In this document: positions 4,645 through 21,641 of the stretch, piece by piece
How positions within the stretch are numbered: position 1 is the first letter of the stretch
Layout of the letters: every line of letters starts with the position of its first letter
Source of the DNA: Candidatus Zixiibacteriota bacterium
Lineage (GTDB): Bacteria; Zixibacteria; MSB-5A5; RBG-16-43-9
Length of the DNA stretch: 33,892 nucleotides
Direction of reading: 5' to 3'
Assembly: GCA_022865345.1 (NCBI GenBank)
Contig: JALHSU010000092.1
Span: forward strand, 1 to 33,892
Position numbers and translations under genes: made by a program
The notes under the pieces: generated by a model
What the model saw: only the letters and a program-made list of their open reading frames with translations
Told to the model about the DNA's origin: nothing
The model's database searches: none

Positions 4645-5016
4645 CTACTCCACAATCAACTTCCCCCTCAACATCCCCATCCCGCAGGTGAAGGTATATT
4701 CCCCTGGTTTTTCCGGAGTGAACTCGATTGGAGTGGTTTTATAAGCAGGCAAACTTTTTCTTATATTAAAATCCCCGAAAACAATTTCCTCCGAACAGCT
4801 CTCTGTCTCGTCCCGGTAAAAATCAATCCTCACCGGAACCCCTTTTTTCACCAAAATCACATCCGGGTCATATCCTCCCTTGACAATCACCTTGATCTCC
4901 TGAACCCCGGCGCCAGCAGAGGCTTTCACTTTCTGTCTTTTTGAAAAAAAGAAATACCAGTTCACCAGAATTATCAGAAGTATTCCAAAAACTGCAACTA
5001 AGATTTTTGATTCCAT
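4645..5016 (-). CDS. Membrane-anchored cupredoxin-domain protein
   Basis: The 123-residue product starts with a hydrophobic anchor (residues 5-24) followed by basic residues. A single small beta-rich domain follows, matching the cupredoxin type commonly found beside or fused to copper P-type ATPases (IKVIVKGGYDPDVILVKKG ... EYTFTCGMGMLRGKLIVE). Candidate copper ligands are Cys74, Cys111, Met113 and Met115; there is no His-rich blue-copper set. It probably faces the cell exterior and binds Cu released by CopA. I prefer the ATG at 5016 (AGAGGA and AAGGAA upstream). A longer frame to 5112 would begin inside a dispersed repeat. It lies downstream of copA in the same orientation, with a repeat between them. 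Confidence 0.82.
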   Translation of the reverse strand: MESKILVAVFGILLIILVNWYFFFSKRQKVKASAGAGVQEIKVIVKGGYDPDVILVKKGVPVRIDFYRDETESCSEEIVFGDFNIRKSLPAYKTTPIEFTPEKPGEYTFTCGMGMLRGKLIVE

Positions 5017-5037
5017 ATCCTCTGTTCCTTCTTTTCG

Positions 5038-5104
5038 TGTCATTCTGAGGGAGTCTCCGCCGAAGGCGGAACGACCGAAGAATCTGAGATTCTTCGTCCC
5101 TCTA
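5038..5104. repeat. GTCATT-type repeat, half copy with nested hairpin
   Basis: It begins GTCATTCTGAG and contains GAAGAATCT with facing AGATTCTTC, like the full copy at 11550-11646, but the distal outer arm is missing. A nested hairpin TCCGCC-GAA-GGCGGA lies at 5056-5070. Confidence 0.65.
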
Positions 5105-5183
5105 CGAGCCATAAAGCTTTTATCAGCCTACGACCGGGGTAGCACCCTCAAACTCGTTTGGGGGTGCTACACAAATGCCAAAA

Positions 5184-7907
5184 TCAAAATCTCCTCAACC
5201 TCAAAGAATTAGAAACCACCGAGACCGAGGAGAATGCCATAGCCGCTGAGGCAATCATTGGGTTAAGCAGGATTCCAAAAAATGGATAAAGCACGCCTGC
5301 GGCAATCGGAATCCCAAGAACGTTATAGATGAAAGCCCAGAAAAGGTTCTGCCTGATTATCTTTATCGTGTTCTTGCTCAACTTGATTGCGGTGACCACA
5401 CCGGAGAGGTCTCCTCTGATCAGGGTGATGTCGGACGCCTCCATCGCGATGTCTGTTCCTGTGCCAATAGCTATACCCACGTCTGCCTGGGCTAAAGCAG
5501 GGGCATCATTAATTCCGTCTCCCACCATTGCCACGATCTTCCCTTCGTTCTGAAGTTTTCTTACCTCATAAACTTTATCTTCTGGAAGAACCTCAGAGAG
5601 GACCCTGTTGATTCCCACTTTCCTGGCAATAGCGTTAGCGGTTTGACGATTATCTCCTGTCAGCATCACTACCTCTAAACCCAACTGGTGAAGCTGCTCC
5701 ACCGCATTTTTAGAATTCTCTTTCAGAGTGTCCGCAACCGCGATGACCGCGGAAGATTTCCCATCTATTGATAAATAGATACTGGTTTTCCCATCCAGGG
5801 ATAATTCCTCAGCCTTGGGAATTAAAGCTCTTATCTCTATCTTTCTTTCCTCCATCAGTTTTTGATTTCCCAATAGAACGTTCTTACTATCAATTTTAGC
5901 CTCAATCCCGAAACCAGCAATGGAATTGAACTCCAGAGAATCTTTAAGCTCGATTTTCTCTTCTACGGCTTTCCTGACAATCGCCTCTCCCAATGGATGC
6001 TCTGATTTTTTCTCCGCGCTTCCAGCATAAAATAAAATCTCTTTCGCAGAGAGTTTGTCCAGGGGGATGATATCTGTCACCTCCGGCTCGCCTTTGGTCA
6101 AAGTCCCGGTCTTGTCGAAAATGATGGTATTAATCTTATGCGCAGTTTCTAAACTCTCTCCCCCTTTTATCAAGATCCCTTTTTCTGCTCCTTTGCCTGT
6201 GCCCACCATAATGGCAGTAGGAGTAGCCAGACCCAAAGCGCAGGGACAGGCGATGATCATTACCGCAACGAAATTCAGAAGGGCAAAAGTCAAGCCTGGA
6301 TTTGGACCAAAAACGTACCAGATAATGAAAGTCAAAATGGCAATGGAGATCACCACCGGCACGAAATATCCGGCAATTACATCAGCTAATCTTTGAATCG
6401 GTGCTTTGGACCCTTGAGCCTCCTGCACCAATTTGATGATCTGGGCTAAGGCTGTATCTTTTCCAACTTTGGTAGCTTCGAATTTGAAGCTTCCGCTTTT
6501 GTTTATGGTGGCACCGATCACCTCATCTCCGGCTTTCTTCTCAACCGGAATACTCTCCCCGGTGATCATTGACTCATCCACAAAAGATTTTCCATCTTTG
6601 ACAACTCCATCCACCGGGACCTTCTCCCCTGGACGAACAATAACCAAATCTACAACTACAACTTCTTGCACCGGTATATCGATTTCTTTTCCATCCCTAA
6701 TAACTCTTGCGATTTTTGGCTGTAAACCGATTAACTTTTTTATTGCCTCTGAGGTCTGTCCCTTTGCTCTGGCTTCTAAAACCTTGCCTAGAAGTATCAA
6801 AGTTATTATAACTACTGTGGTGTCAAAATAGACCTTAGGCTCAATTCCACCTGACCTGAAGAAAGAGGGGAAAAGGATTGCAGTAATACTGTAGAGATAG
6901 GCGGCTGAGGTGCCCACAGCGATCAGGGTATTCATATCCGCATTCCTGTGCCTGAACGCACCCCAGGCACCACGGTAAAACTGCCAGCCAGCCCAGAACT
7001 GAACCGGAGTGGCTAAGATCCAGAGAAGATAATAATTTGTCAAAAGCTTGGGAACACCCGCAACCCACTCTAAACTTCCGACCAAAACGATAACACTTAT
7101 GACCAGTCCAAAGAAAAATTTACTCTTGAGTTTTTTATACTCTCTTTCGCGGATAACTCTTTCGTAATCCTCAACCTCTTCTACTTCCGTTTCTATGACC
7201 TTATACCCGGTGGATTCAATTACCTTTTTTATCTCTGCCAAATTTGTCTCTTCCGGAATATATTCCACCCTGGCTCTCTCTGTGGCTAAGTTGACAACAG
7301 CATTGGTTACTCCTTTGGTTTCAAGTAATGCTTTCTCGATCTTCTGGATGCAGGAGGCACAGTCTATGCCCTGGATCGGGATTTCAATCGAGACCGTACC
7401 CACATCATACCCGCTTTTGCGGATGGAGGAGATAAAACTATCCACGCCCACTTTTCCAGGATCATAAAATATGGTTGCCTTAGACGTGGCTAAATTGACT
7501 GAGGTTTTACTGACTCCTTGAAGCTCAGACAAGCCTTTTTGAATAGCCTGAGCGCAGGAAGCGCAACTCATTCCGGTGACGGGAAGGTCTATCCTTTCAC
7601 CTTTTTTACCCTCAGCCTCATCTTTGAGGGGAGATTTCTTCATATCCATTTTTATACCAGAGGAGGATTTTTCTGCTCGGACAGGAGTTGTACTCCTGTC
7701 CGTGGATTTGTTCGGGCAAGAGTGCAACTCTCGCCCGAGCTCTTTTGAGGCAGGGGGAGACTTTTCTTTTAGATATTTCTCAGGGGCTTTATCAAATTCC
7801 TCTTTACAGTGCGGGGAGCAAAAATAATAAGTCTCTCCCTTATAGGTTGAGCTACCTGCAGCTTCCTCTTTTTCAACCTCCATCCCGCAAACCGGATCCA
7901 AAGGCAT
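5184..7907 (-). CDS. copA: Cu(I)-exporting P1B-type ATPase with N-terminal YHS domain
   Basis: The 907-residue pump uses ATP to export monovalent copper (or silver) across the inner membrane. Domains in order: a YHS domain (1-47; Cys7, Cys30, Cys34), a polar linker (48-105), two HMA metal-binding domains (SCASC, Cys115/Cys118; and DCASC, Cys183/Cys186), then membrane helices from about 262. The actuator TGES is at 449-452 and the transport-site CPC at 554-556. The phosphorylation motif DKTGT is at 598-602 (Asp598), the SEHPLG motif at 635-640, and GDGINDAP at 796-803. YN (861-862) and MAFSS (890-894) in the last helices are the CopA (P1B-1) specificity residues. The ATG follows AGAGGAAAAA. 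Palindromes separate it from the upstream redox genes. Confidence 0.97.
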
Positions 7908-8156: not shown

Positions 8157-8405
8157 TTATTTACTTCTCCGTTTCAACAATTTTACAATCTTTTCTCTGT
8201 TTATCCCGAACCCCAAAATCTTTTCATTGTCTATGATTATGGTCGGGGTAAGCAGCTGCCCGTATTTCTGAACCAGCTCCTCCCTGTTCCAGTAATCCTC
8301 CACGTTCTTATCCTCAAACTCTATCTTCTGTTTCGAAAAGAACCTTTTCGCTGCTTCGCAATCCACTCAGGTTGGTGAGGAATAGATTATCACTTTCTCA
8401 GACAT
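8157..8405 (-). CDS. Glutaredoxin-like selenoprotein (UxxC), in-frame TGA at residue 13
   Basis: Read from ATG 8405 (Shine-Dalgarno GGAGGG) with TGA at 8369-8367 decoded as selenocysteine, the product is 82 residues. It starts MSEKVIIYSSPT-U-VDCEAAK. Against the nearby paralogue at 8999-9331 (VVIYSAPDCPDS), the TGA falls exactly on the active-site Cys, and Cys16 completes a UxxC redox motif. The thioredoxin-fold cis-proline motif TPT is at 53-55 and GFG at 65-67. A 7-bp hairpin lies in the SECIS position. Without recoding only a 69-residue GTG-start fragment lacking the first strand would remain. It likely reduces disulfides or handles metal-thiol adducts in the cytoplasm. It lies 21 nt after the SHOCT gene, so in one operon. 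No sel genes are in the window. Confidence 0.75.
8334..8369 (-). promoter_or_regulatory. UGA plus SECIS-like hairpin
   Basis: After TGA (8369-8367) come 16 nt, then a perfect stem CGAAAAG/CTTTTCG (8350-8334) with loop GTT, or a 6-bp stem with loop GGTTC. Bacterial SECIS elements are hairpins just 3' of the UGA with G among the first loop bases; this one fits. The paralogue encodes the same KRFFS segment with other codons and does not form the stem. Confidence 0.6.
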
Positions 8406-8426
8406 TTTTCCCTCCAGTTTTGAATA

Positions 8427-8651
8427 TTATATCCCTGTAAGGTCTTTTTTCTTCTGCTCGAATTCCTCTTTGTTTATCTCTCCCCGGGCATACCTTTTCT
8501 TAAGAATCTCCAGGGCATTTTCTTCTTGGGCCGGACTTCTTGGCTCAGACCTTCCCTGCTGAAGAAGCCATTTTACCACCAGGGCAATAAAAAATATCAC
8601 CACTATCCAGAAAATGATCATCCCCAGCCAGCCAAATCCCCACATGTGCAT
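8427..8651 (-). CDS. Small membrane protein with C-terminal SHOCT domain
   Basis: The 74-residue product has an N-terminal MHMWGFGWLG segment, one transmembrane helix (about 9-30), a short polar linker and a SHOCT domain (about 44-72: NALEILKKRYARGEINKEEF). SHOCT is a short helical domain of unknown biochemical role, often found in small membrane proteins and frequently near metal-resistance genes. The N-terminal His/Met/Trp residues could contact metal, but this is speculative. The start at 8651 has GGGAGGAAAT. It sits between the ferredoxin gene (34-nt gap) and the Sec glutaredoxin gene (21-nt gap), so all three are probably cotranscribed from the promoter at 8928-8956. Confidence 0.85.
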   Translation of the reverse strand: MHMWGFGWLGMIIFWIVVIFFIALVVKWLLQQGRSEPRSPAQEENALEILKKRYARGEINKEEFEQKKKDLTGI

Positions 8652-8685: not shown

Positions 8686-8874
8686 TTACTCCTTGATAAT
8701 TATAGCAGCAGAAGGACAGGAATCTGCCGCATCCTTACAGCACTCAGCTAAATCTGCTGGAACGTCATTGATTTTGGCAACCGCCTTTTCTCCCTGCATC
8801 TCAAAAATCTGTGGGCAAACCTGTACACACAACTCTTCCCCGGTGCACAAGTCAGGATCGACTTTCACTTTCAT
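8686..8874 (-). CDS. Small single-cluster [4Fe-4S] ferredoxin
   Basis: The 62-residue electron carrier belongs to the Thermotoga/Pyrococcus type. The motif is Cys10-x2-Glu13-x2-Cys16-x3-Cys20-Pro with a distal Cys53-Pro. The second ligand position is Glu13 instead of Cys, comparable to the Asp found there in Pyrococcus ferredoxin. Such a site can hold a [4Fe-4S] cluster with one non-Cys ligand or interconvert with [3Fe-4S]. Cys20 and Cys45 or Cys46 probably form the structural disulfide known in this family. I start at ATG 8874, 5 nt after GGAGGG, not at the ATG five codons upstream. It is the first gene after a good promoter and heads the ferredoxin-SHOCT-SecGrx run. Confidence 0.88.
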   Translation of the reverse strand: MKVKVDPDLCTGEELCVQVCPQIFEMQGEKAVAKINDVPADLAECCKDAADSCPSAAIIIKE

Positions 8875-8927
8875 TATACCCTCCTGCATTAATATTTTTC
8901 TCTAAAATCGGTTGCAGATTATGAGAT

Positions 8928-8998: not shown

Positions 8999-9331
8999 TC
9001 ATAAATTTAATATCTTAAGTATATCATTTATGTTTATACCGAATCCCAAAAAGATGGTTTTACCTATGATTATTGTCGGTGTCAACAAGATCCCGTATGT
9101 TCTGATCAGCTCCTGTCTGATTTCCGGCTTTTCTACATTTTTGTCTTCGTAGTCTATCTTCTCCTCTGAGAAAAATCTCTTAGCTACCTGGGAATCCGGG
9201 CAATCCGGAGCTGAATAGATTACCACCTTTCCAGAGGATTCAGATTCCGATTTTTCAGGAGCAGACTTTGATTTTTTCTTCTCCGGTTTTGAACTGAACA
9301 GCCACCAGAATATCTTTTTTCTTCTGCTCAT
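8999..9331 (-). CDS. Glutaredoxin-like protein with CPDS site and basic N-terminal extension
   Basis: The 110-residue product has a charged N-terminal extension (1-34; MSRRKKIFWWLF followed by Lys/Ser/Glu-rich sequence), then a glutaredoxin-like domain. The active site is Cys44-Pro-Asp-Ser47, a single-cysteine (CxxS) form. The cis-proline motif TPT is at 84-86 and GFG at 96-98. It is a clear paralogue of the Sec protein at 8157-8405 (shared AKRFFS, EDKNVE, LLTPTIII, GFGIN). The pair therefore combines a monothiol and a selenol/thiol active site. The aromatic-basic N-terminus could associate with the membrane. The start at 9331 is preceded by AGAAGGAA. It lies 53 nt after the mini membrane protein gene. 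Confidence 0.85.
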   Translation of the reverse strand: MSRRKKIFWWLFSSKPEKKKSKSAPEKSESESSGKVVIYSAPDCPDSQVAKRFFSEEKIDYEDKNVEKPEIRQELIRTYGILLTPTIIIGKTIFLGFGININDILKILNL

Positions 9332-9592: not shown

Positions 9593-9865
9593 TCAAAAAT
9601 CCTTTTGGGAGCAGCAAAATTTGTTTAAAAGATTATAAACCGGAACAAAGACTAAAGCCGTATAAAGTCCATAGATAAAACTCAAAGAGAGACCATATAA
9701 GAAGCTCCTGAAACTAATCCAGGTAAAACCCGGTAGTAAAACCTCTAAAAACCTATGCATCTCTGAGCCTTGGATCATCAAGCCGAACAACACGCATAGA
9801 CTGAAGGTAAAGCTTAAAAATATCGCCAGTGAAAATCCGACTATTTTGATGCTGAGTTTTGTCAT
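9593..9865 (-). CDS. Two-helix membrane protein, DUF5676-like
   Basis: The 90-residue protein has two hydrophobic segments (about 8-34 and 56-80) with a short polar loop and ends ...VFVPVYNLLNKFCCSQKDF. Length, a helix ending in a YN-type motif, and the neighbourhood resemble the DUF5676 family of small membrane proteins that often sit near copper or heavy-metal genes; the assignment is from memory. A Cys pair sits in the C-terminal tail. Its ATG lies 6 nt after the stop of the YHS-like gene and has no convincing Shine-Dalgarno, so translational coupling is likely. Confidence 0.7.
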   Translation of the reverse strand: MTKLSIKIVGFSLAIFLSFTFSLCVLFGLMIQGSEMHRFLEVLLPGFTWISFRSFLYGLSLSFIYGLYTALVFVPVYNLLNKFCCSQKDF

Positions 9866-21087: not shown

Positions 21088-21357
21088 CCCGTGCACCCAC
21101 CTTTGATCCCTCACTCCAAGGAGGTTCGGACGCAGTCAGGCTCCAGCCAGGCTCTCTTACGGCACACTCAGGTATTCACTTACCGCTGCTACCTTCCGGT
21201 CCTGACGGGGTTAGGTGAGCCTGGGTTGCGCAAGACCTGACCTTCATCGCCTCTTACCCCTCCCCTTTCTCAGAGGAGAAGACCTCAGGCGGGGATTCGA
21301 CCCCGGTAAAGCGGGTTCCGGGTTACAGGGCACCGCTAACTCCCCATCTAGCACGGG
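21088..21357 (-). ncRNA. ffs: Signal recognition particle RNA, large (Alu-containing) type
   Basis: The conserved helix-8 core CAGGACCGGAAGGTAGCAGC, with GTAAGTGAA after it, lies at about 21205-21178 on the minus strand. The 5' half GTGCTAGATGGGGAGTTAGC and GGTGCCCTGTAACCCG matches the Alu-domain start of the Bacillus scRNA. The terminal helix pairs CCCGTGC (21357-21351) with GCACGGG (21094-21088), giving 270 nt, close to the 271 nt of Bacillus. This RNA binds Ffh to target membrane proteins. It is not the short 4.5S form of Gram-negative model species. It lies directly upstream of dnaX, as is common. Confidence 0.92.
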
Positions 21358-21568: not shown

Positions 21569-21641
21569 TGGAGCAGAGCGGATTCGAACCGCCGACCTTC
21601 TCGTTGCGAACGAGACGCTCTCCCAGCTGAGCTACTGCCCC
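21569..21641 (-). tRNA. tRNA-Ala (anticodon CGC)
   Basis: A 73-nt cloverleaf folds cleanly. The acceptor GGGGCAG/CTGCTCC includes the G3-U70 pair that defines tRNA-Ala. The anticodon stem TCTCG/CGAGA carries the loop TTCGCAA, so the anticodon is CGC, reading GCG. The T-loop is TTCGAAT and the discriminator is A. The 3' CCA is not encoded. It lies upstream of SRP RNA. Confidence 0.97.

Follow-up and report, generated by a model that had tools for sequence, protein, structure and literature searches.

A probable selenocysteine glutaredoxin encoded beside a CopA-type copper ATPase gene in a Zixiibacteriota genome

The window, by which we mean the whole 33,892-nucleotide stretch of DNA analyzed here, carries on its minus strand (8157 to 8405) a glutaredoxin gene whose 82-residue product reads MSEKVIIYSSPT-U-V-D-C-EAAKRFFS... 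when an in-frame TGA is taken as residue 13. Comparison with related genes makes it almost certain that this gene encodes a selenoprotein through decoding of the UGA. The joint claim that the product is a glutaredoxin and is linked to copper is a probable one. Its proposed job, thiol upkeep of a copper exporter by a glutathione-independent reductase, is put forward tentatively.

The reading frame runs from an ATG at 8405 to a TAA stop at 8159 to 8157, and it is a single frame if the TGA at 8367 to 8369 (minus strand) is a residue, predicted to be selenocysteine. A ribosome binding site, GGAGGG (8410 to 8415, minus strand; by eye), precedes the ATG with a spacing of 4 nucleotides, so the proper start described in the first-pass annotation is present. 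A neighboring cysteine-type paralogue aligns on both sides of the TGA and has TGC at that column. Translation and alignment with cysteine homologues agree in placing the TGA at the active-site cysteine, with Cys16 three residues past U13 to give UxxC, as had been proposed from the sequence. The product matched the glutaredoxin domain PF00462 with 46.2 bits (Pfam cut-off, 22.9), and a structure model built with eight homologues (mean pLDDT, 91.6) has a glutaredoxin fold with a cis-Pro TPT loop; its best solved-structure match is 7c10 (42% identity; TM, 0.82/0.89). The domain, the TGA at a catalytic codon that is cysteine in homologues, and the selenocysteine machinery of the genome place the protein among the UxxC selenoprotein glutaredoxins of PF00462. 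None of the NCBIfam models scored over its own cut-off, and membership was rejected for Uxx-star (NF041212; 36 bits against a curated cut-off of 66), the YruB family (TIGR02196; 59.6 against 88.55), and NrdH (TIGR02194; 48.3 against 85.75). The only entry for the locus in a mechanical list of open reading frames is a 69-amino-acid remnant starting at a GTG (8366 to 8157). This is the truncation that standard gene callers had been expected to report, and the gene is an example of one cut to a fragment by plain ORF calling.

The genome of the window (2.86 Mb in 275 contigs, 96.6% complete) was examined for selA, selB, selC, and selD, as the first-pass annotation had suggested, and the machinery was found. 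A tRNA-Sec scored 66.9 bits (cut-off, 47), with the anticodon tca according to ARAGORN, and selA scored 563 bits. The selD gene (377 bits) has an in-frame TGA of its own (SSSG-U; L080 4762), indicating that it is likely to be a selenoprotein itself. The selB match is above the cut-off but covers only model positions 2 to 213 of 581, at a contig end; the start of selB shares one contig with tRNA-Sec, selD, and selA. Among 59 relatives, 50 have a selA match above the cut-off and 51 a selB match above its own. Seven of the eight genomes with a TGA-containing glutaredoxin match have both genes above the cut-offs. In the eighth, G028, which is listed as 100% complete and has a TGA glutaredoxin with a hairpin (L020), selA had no match and selB never scored above the cut-off; we cannot explain this other than by an assembly gap.

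Related Zixiibacteriota retain the same TGA, as do many Bacillota. A search of the 59 relatives gave 25 matched places, 8 of which have one TGA, at the catalytic codon, and 2 of which are the cysteine paralogue and the matching G002 gene. The remaining 15 (L016 to L019, L021 to L029, L032, and L033) end in GG[GS]-TGA-two codons-stop and are of the Uxx-star type, one of them confirmed by NF041212 with 118.7 bits. In most of these Uxx-star-type genes, a GC-rich hairpin, GGUC- or GGUU-like, follows closely behind the TGA. No match was found in G001, a genome of the same genus that is 74% complete. A draw of 398 genomes was taken from the phylum to which the Dethiobacter record belongs; 66 of them had a match, and 49 of the 72 matches listed carry one TGA, with the catalytic position checked by alignment for 42 of the 49. 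The suggestion that selenocysteine glutaredoxins are confined to a few bacteria therefore does not hold. Of these 72, 59 were newly taken into the comparison, 2 were already in the set, and 11 (L105 to L115) stand outside the hairpin counts and the tree; overlapping searches (the same 132 genomes and near-identical 398-genome draws) were counted once each. Altogether, 73 homologues were compared, of which 51 have TGA at the column and 22 have cysteine, the residue that had been proposed as a check. For the nearest pair, L009 and L010, the part after the TGA has a dN of 0.038 and a dS of 0.33.

These comparisons bear on whether the TGA is a true stop, leaving either a pseudogene or a 69-residue product of translation resumed at the GTG just after it. 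The ORF list, which gives only the remnant, and the weakness of the window hairpin by itself are in line with a stop. However, related species have the TGA at this very codon and keep the reading frame before and after it, decay of the downstream frame was not seen, and the remnant would be without strand 1 and the catalytic residue. We therefore rejected the pseudogene or GTG restart, which is very improbable. Still less probable is that a recoded genome or a suppressor reads the TGA as another amino acid. An open frame by itself cannot name the residue, but 8 of the 23 minus-strand frames counted in the window end at a TGA stop, tRNA-Sec is present, and homologues have cysteine at the column; a recoded genetic code was rejected on these grounds. 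The tests that were run to refute the selenoprotein reading did not refute it.

A SECIS-like hairpin lies downstream of the TGA (8334 to 8350, minus strand), with the stem CGAAAAG/CUUUUCG of seven pairs and the loop GUU. As the first-pass annotation had noted, the stem starts 16 nucleotides past the TGA and a G opens the loop. The loop begins at 23 nucleotides. The first-pass annotation had also said that the paralogue lacks the hairpin, and there only 4 of the 7 pairs form in the same register. A bacterial SECIS model, as given in the Fig. 2 legend of a review available in part (PMC13188914), has a loop of 3 to 9 nucleotides located 16 to 37 nucleotides after the UGA, a stem of 4 to 16 bp, G within the first two positions of the loop, and a free energy of -7.5 kcal/mol or lower. 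The reading of the hairpin as a bacterial SECIS thus stands for the geometry (GUU loop, 7 bp, 23 nucleotides) but not for the energy, which is -5.5 kcal/mol for the hairpin alone, and a 43-nucleotide stretch favors another fold. In the corresponding 27-nucleotide stretch, L011 to L013 reach about -9 kcal/mol. In 20,000 random synonymous recodings with the same residues and the codon usage of the window, all seven pairs formed in this register in 0.5% of draws; because some stem of at least 7 pairs arose nearby in 33% of draws and the fold energy was at least as good in 10%, the window hairpin alone is weak evidence.

The comparative evidence for the hairpin, drawn from alignments, is strong. 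Across the 51 TGA genes, the stem positions are paired in 84.8% of cells, with changes on both sides at six of eight pairs. The covariation score was 0.262, compared to 0.161 (standard deviation, 0.011) in shuffles, none of 500 of which reached 0.262, and it was at most 0.181 in slid versions of the stem alignment. In 18 cysteine homologues, 43.1% of cells at the stem were paired, with no covariation excess; this alignment took 18 of 22 rows and omitted the distant L171, L173, L174, and L175. The mean energy of the region was -8.0 in the 51 TGA genes versus -2.6 in the 22 cysteine genes (P = 1.5e-9, for sequences that are not independent). In three TGA genes (L141, L152, and L172), the stem is short or displaced by a base. 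The residues encoded by the stem are also conserved in the protein, and coding thereby accounts for some of the pairing, but the cysteine control argues against coding constraint as the whole cause. No Rfam family scored above its gathering score at the hairpin or gene site. A cysteine (TGT) glutaredoxin, L122, retains 7 of 7 stem pairs, with the loop AUU instead of GUU (48-nucleotide stretch, 5136 to 5183), and this stem is possibly a SECIS left over from a change of selenocysteine to cysteine.

The gene stands in a copper cluster, all members of which described here are on the minus strand. The gene for a CopA-type copper ATPase with a YHS and two HMA domains (5184 to 7907; TIGR01511, 662 bits against a cut-off of 397; PF04945 and PF00403) starts 250 bp downstream and is followed by a gene for a cupredoxin-domain protein with a provisional start (4645 to 5112; PF13473, 77 bits). 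Upstream lie genes for a small membrane protein with a SHOCT domain (8427 to 8651; PF09851, 44 bits), a ferredoxin of the single 4Fe-4S type (8686 to 8889; PF13370, 46.1 bits), and the cysteine-type paralogue, which has an N-terminal extension (8999 to 9331; PF00462, 43.8 bits). In L043 and L044, the protein encoded before the glutaredoxin has a similar SHOCT-like stretch at its C terminus (by eye), and L044 also has a similar ferredoxin. The window ferredoxin resembles HgcB, with 27 bits, far under the cut-off of 99. The paralogue has serine as the second active-site residue (C-P-D-S) and is placed within the Zixiibacteriota selenocysteine clade of the tree with support of 95/95, indicating that it most likely originated by duplication, with a change of selenocysteine to cysteine and of the second cysteine to serine. 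Elsewhere in the window, 9593 to 9865 encodes a two-helix membrane protein (DUF5676), and a similar protein precedes the paralogue in L042; a bacterial large SRP RNA (21089 to 21356) and a tRNA gene (21569 to 21641) are both on the minus strand.

The association with copper extends beyond the window. A P-type ATPase is encoded within 5 kb at 11 of 17 loci of glutaredoxins with the motif [U/C]xD[C/S] (the window, L042 to L045, L047, L048, L118, L121, L176, and L178) versus 0 of 32 loci of other homologues (Fisher P = 4e-7, uncorrected for kinship). In this count of 49 loci, L154 (U-H-E-C) was placed among the others, whereas L155 (C-G-D-C) is in neither group, since its flanks extend only 0.5 kb on each side; L117, L131, and L132 are near contig ends, so a pump past the edge would be missed. 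The pump of L118, which may carry copper or another metal, shares just 33% identity with the window CopA. CsoR-family repressors are present in the clusters of L043, L044, and L121. In L045, a CopA-like protein of 963 residues, with two YHS domains and one HMA domain, has the cysteine version as its N-terminal domain; no selA match was found in this genome, the phylum of which offers only 4 genomes to compare. The cysteine version in L048 adjoins CopA in a genome that has selA. A plasmid tblastn search gave distant matches only, in 21 records all below 60% identity. Both Paenibacillus plasmid regions inspected are copper operons, with the gene order CopZ-CopA-glutaredoxin, and the Acetoanaerobium region has no annotation.

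From these gene neighborhoods, the [U/C]xD[C/S] glutaredoxins are probably tied functionally to copper export. They are not firmly one clade: support is 38/76 in a tree of 77 columns that left out the same four distant cysteine rows (L171, L173, L174, and L175), and L045 and L147, of which L191 is a longer stretch, fall outside the weak cluster of the subgroup. A general-purpose selenocysteine redoxin with incidental copper neighbors is a rather improbable alternative. It agrees with the six subgroup loci without a pump within 5 kb (L046, L116, L117, L119, L120, and L191) and with the 32 of 32 other homologues that have none, as well as with the role in serving methionine sulfoxide reductase proposed for the related cGrx1 in the available part of its report (PMC7642778). 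Against it, the pump neighborhood recurs in Zixiibacteriota, L045, Halanaerobiales, Paenibacillus, and a further genome of the draw (L118), in addition to the one fusion.

In the mechanism we propose, selenocysteine would be inserted at the UGA (8369 to 8367) by tRNA-Sec, SelB, and the hairpin (8350 to 8334) and would serve as the catalytic residue of an oxidoreductase with a glutaredoxin fold. When copper or oxidants rise, disulfides or adducts would form on the thiols of the CxxC motifs with which CopA binds copper; the selenolate of U13 would attack these, Cys16 would resolve the bond, and the enzyme would be recycled by a thioredoxin-type reductase rather than by glutathione. We infer that U13 and C16 serve a redox function, and action on the copper-binding thiols of the exporter is suggested by the CopA fusion, the neighborhood, and an analogy to human Grx1. 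No match to gshB was found in the genome, which argues against glutathione dependence as far as the gshB route is concerned and makes a glutathione-dependent activity doubtful. The U-x-D-C glutaredoxin may be a dedicated redox (or metal) partner of CopA, a selenocysteine protein in some lineages and a fused cysteine domain in a lineage without selA; the case for such a partner is suggestive, and we advance it with reserve. The main rival, which we consider unlikely, is that the protein is a metal carrier whose Sec/Cys pair would bind Cu(I) for delivery to the HMA or YHS domains of CopA. The fusion of the cysteine version to CopA and the copper neighborhood fit a carrier equally well, and metal-ligand roles of selenocysteine are suggested for some other selenoproteins in the available part of the 2026 review (PMC13188914). 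However, the glutaredoxin fold, the cis-Pro TPT loop, and a known oxidoreductase as the closest match speak for an oxidoreductase, and the CxxC HMA domains of the same CopA already serve as carriers.

That closest match, by both sequence and structure in the PDB, is cGrx1 of Clostridium (Alkaliphilus) oremlandii (7c10/7c12), according to the accessible part of its report a native selenoprotein crystallized with Cys13 in place of selenocysteine and with Cys16 as the resolving residue (PMC7642778). The window protein shares its catalytic selenocysteine at residue 13, resolving Cys16, and glutaredoxin fold. As far as that text goes, cGrx1 has U-P-x-C and is proposed to reduce the selenoprotein MsrA with glutathione, whereas the window protein has U-x-D-C, a copper exporter as its neighbor, and a genome without a gshB match. 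The Uxx-star proteins (NF041212 and NF041114) are similar in their glutaredoxin-like fold, phylum, and TGA decoding, but their selenocysteine lies three codons from the end and their CPYC motif stays cysteine. In the part of the source available, human Grx1 speeds the reduction of Atox1 and is reported to affect ATP7A/ATP7B (PMC5039574). It may be compared to the window protein as a glutaredoxin acting on copper-handling thiols, in functional analogy only; unlike the window protein, it is a separate, eukaryotic, glutathione-dependent protein without selenium. The Bordetella copZ-prxgrx-gorB operon likewise has a glutaredoxin domain in a copper operon, induced by copper in Bordetella. There, in contrast, the domain belongs to a peroxiredoxin-glutaredoxin fusion that removes peroxide with glutathione reductase, in the setting of no working CopA, and selenocysteine is not mentioned in the available part of that report (PMC7794356).

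Selenocysteine-containing glutaredoxins already appear in the accessible portions of 2005 and 2006 surveys (PMC1088965 and PMC1794560), and those with UxxC are an established selenoprotein family in what is available of reviews from 2022 and 2026 (PMC9312934 and PMC13188914). A table in the portion of the 2026 review at hand contains a selenocysteine-containing cation-transporting ATPase with UxxC (PMC13188914), whose selenocysteine may lie in a glutaredoxin domain or in an HMA domain. No description of a selenocysteine glutaredoxin tied to copA was found in the open-licence literature searched. The window protein therefore appears, judging from sequence, to be a variant form in an already known family, and what is new about it is the proposed link to copper. 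The subgroup with the motif [U/C]-x-D-[C/S] and a heavy-metal P-type ATPase neighbor looks undescribed, and the earlier suggestion of a possibly undescribed copper-cluster subfamily fits these findings within that literature.

If the glutaredoxin is indeed a partner of CopA, the pair would mirror in bacteria the action of human Grx1 on ATP7A/B. Through the cysteine homologues, which include the version fused to CopA, the link between glutaredoxins and copper ATPases becomes testable in ordinary hosts. If true, selenium would gain a specific job in the copper handling of uncultured bacteria.
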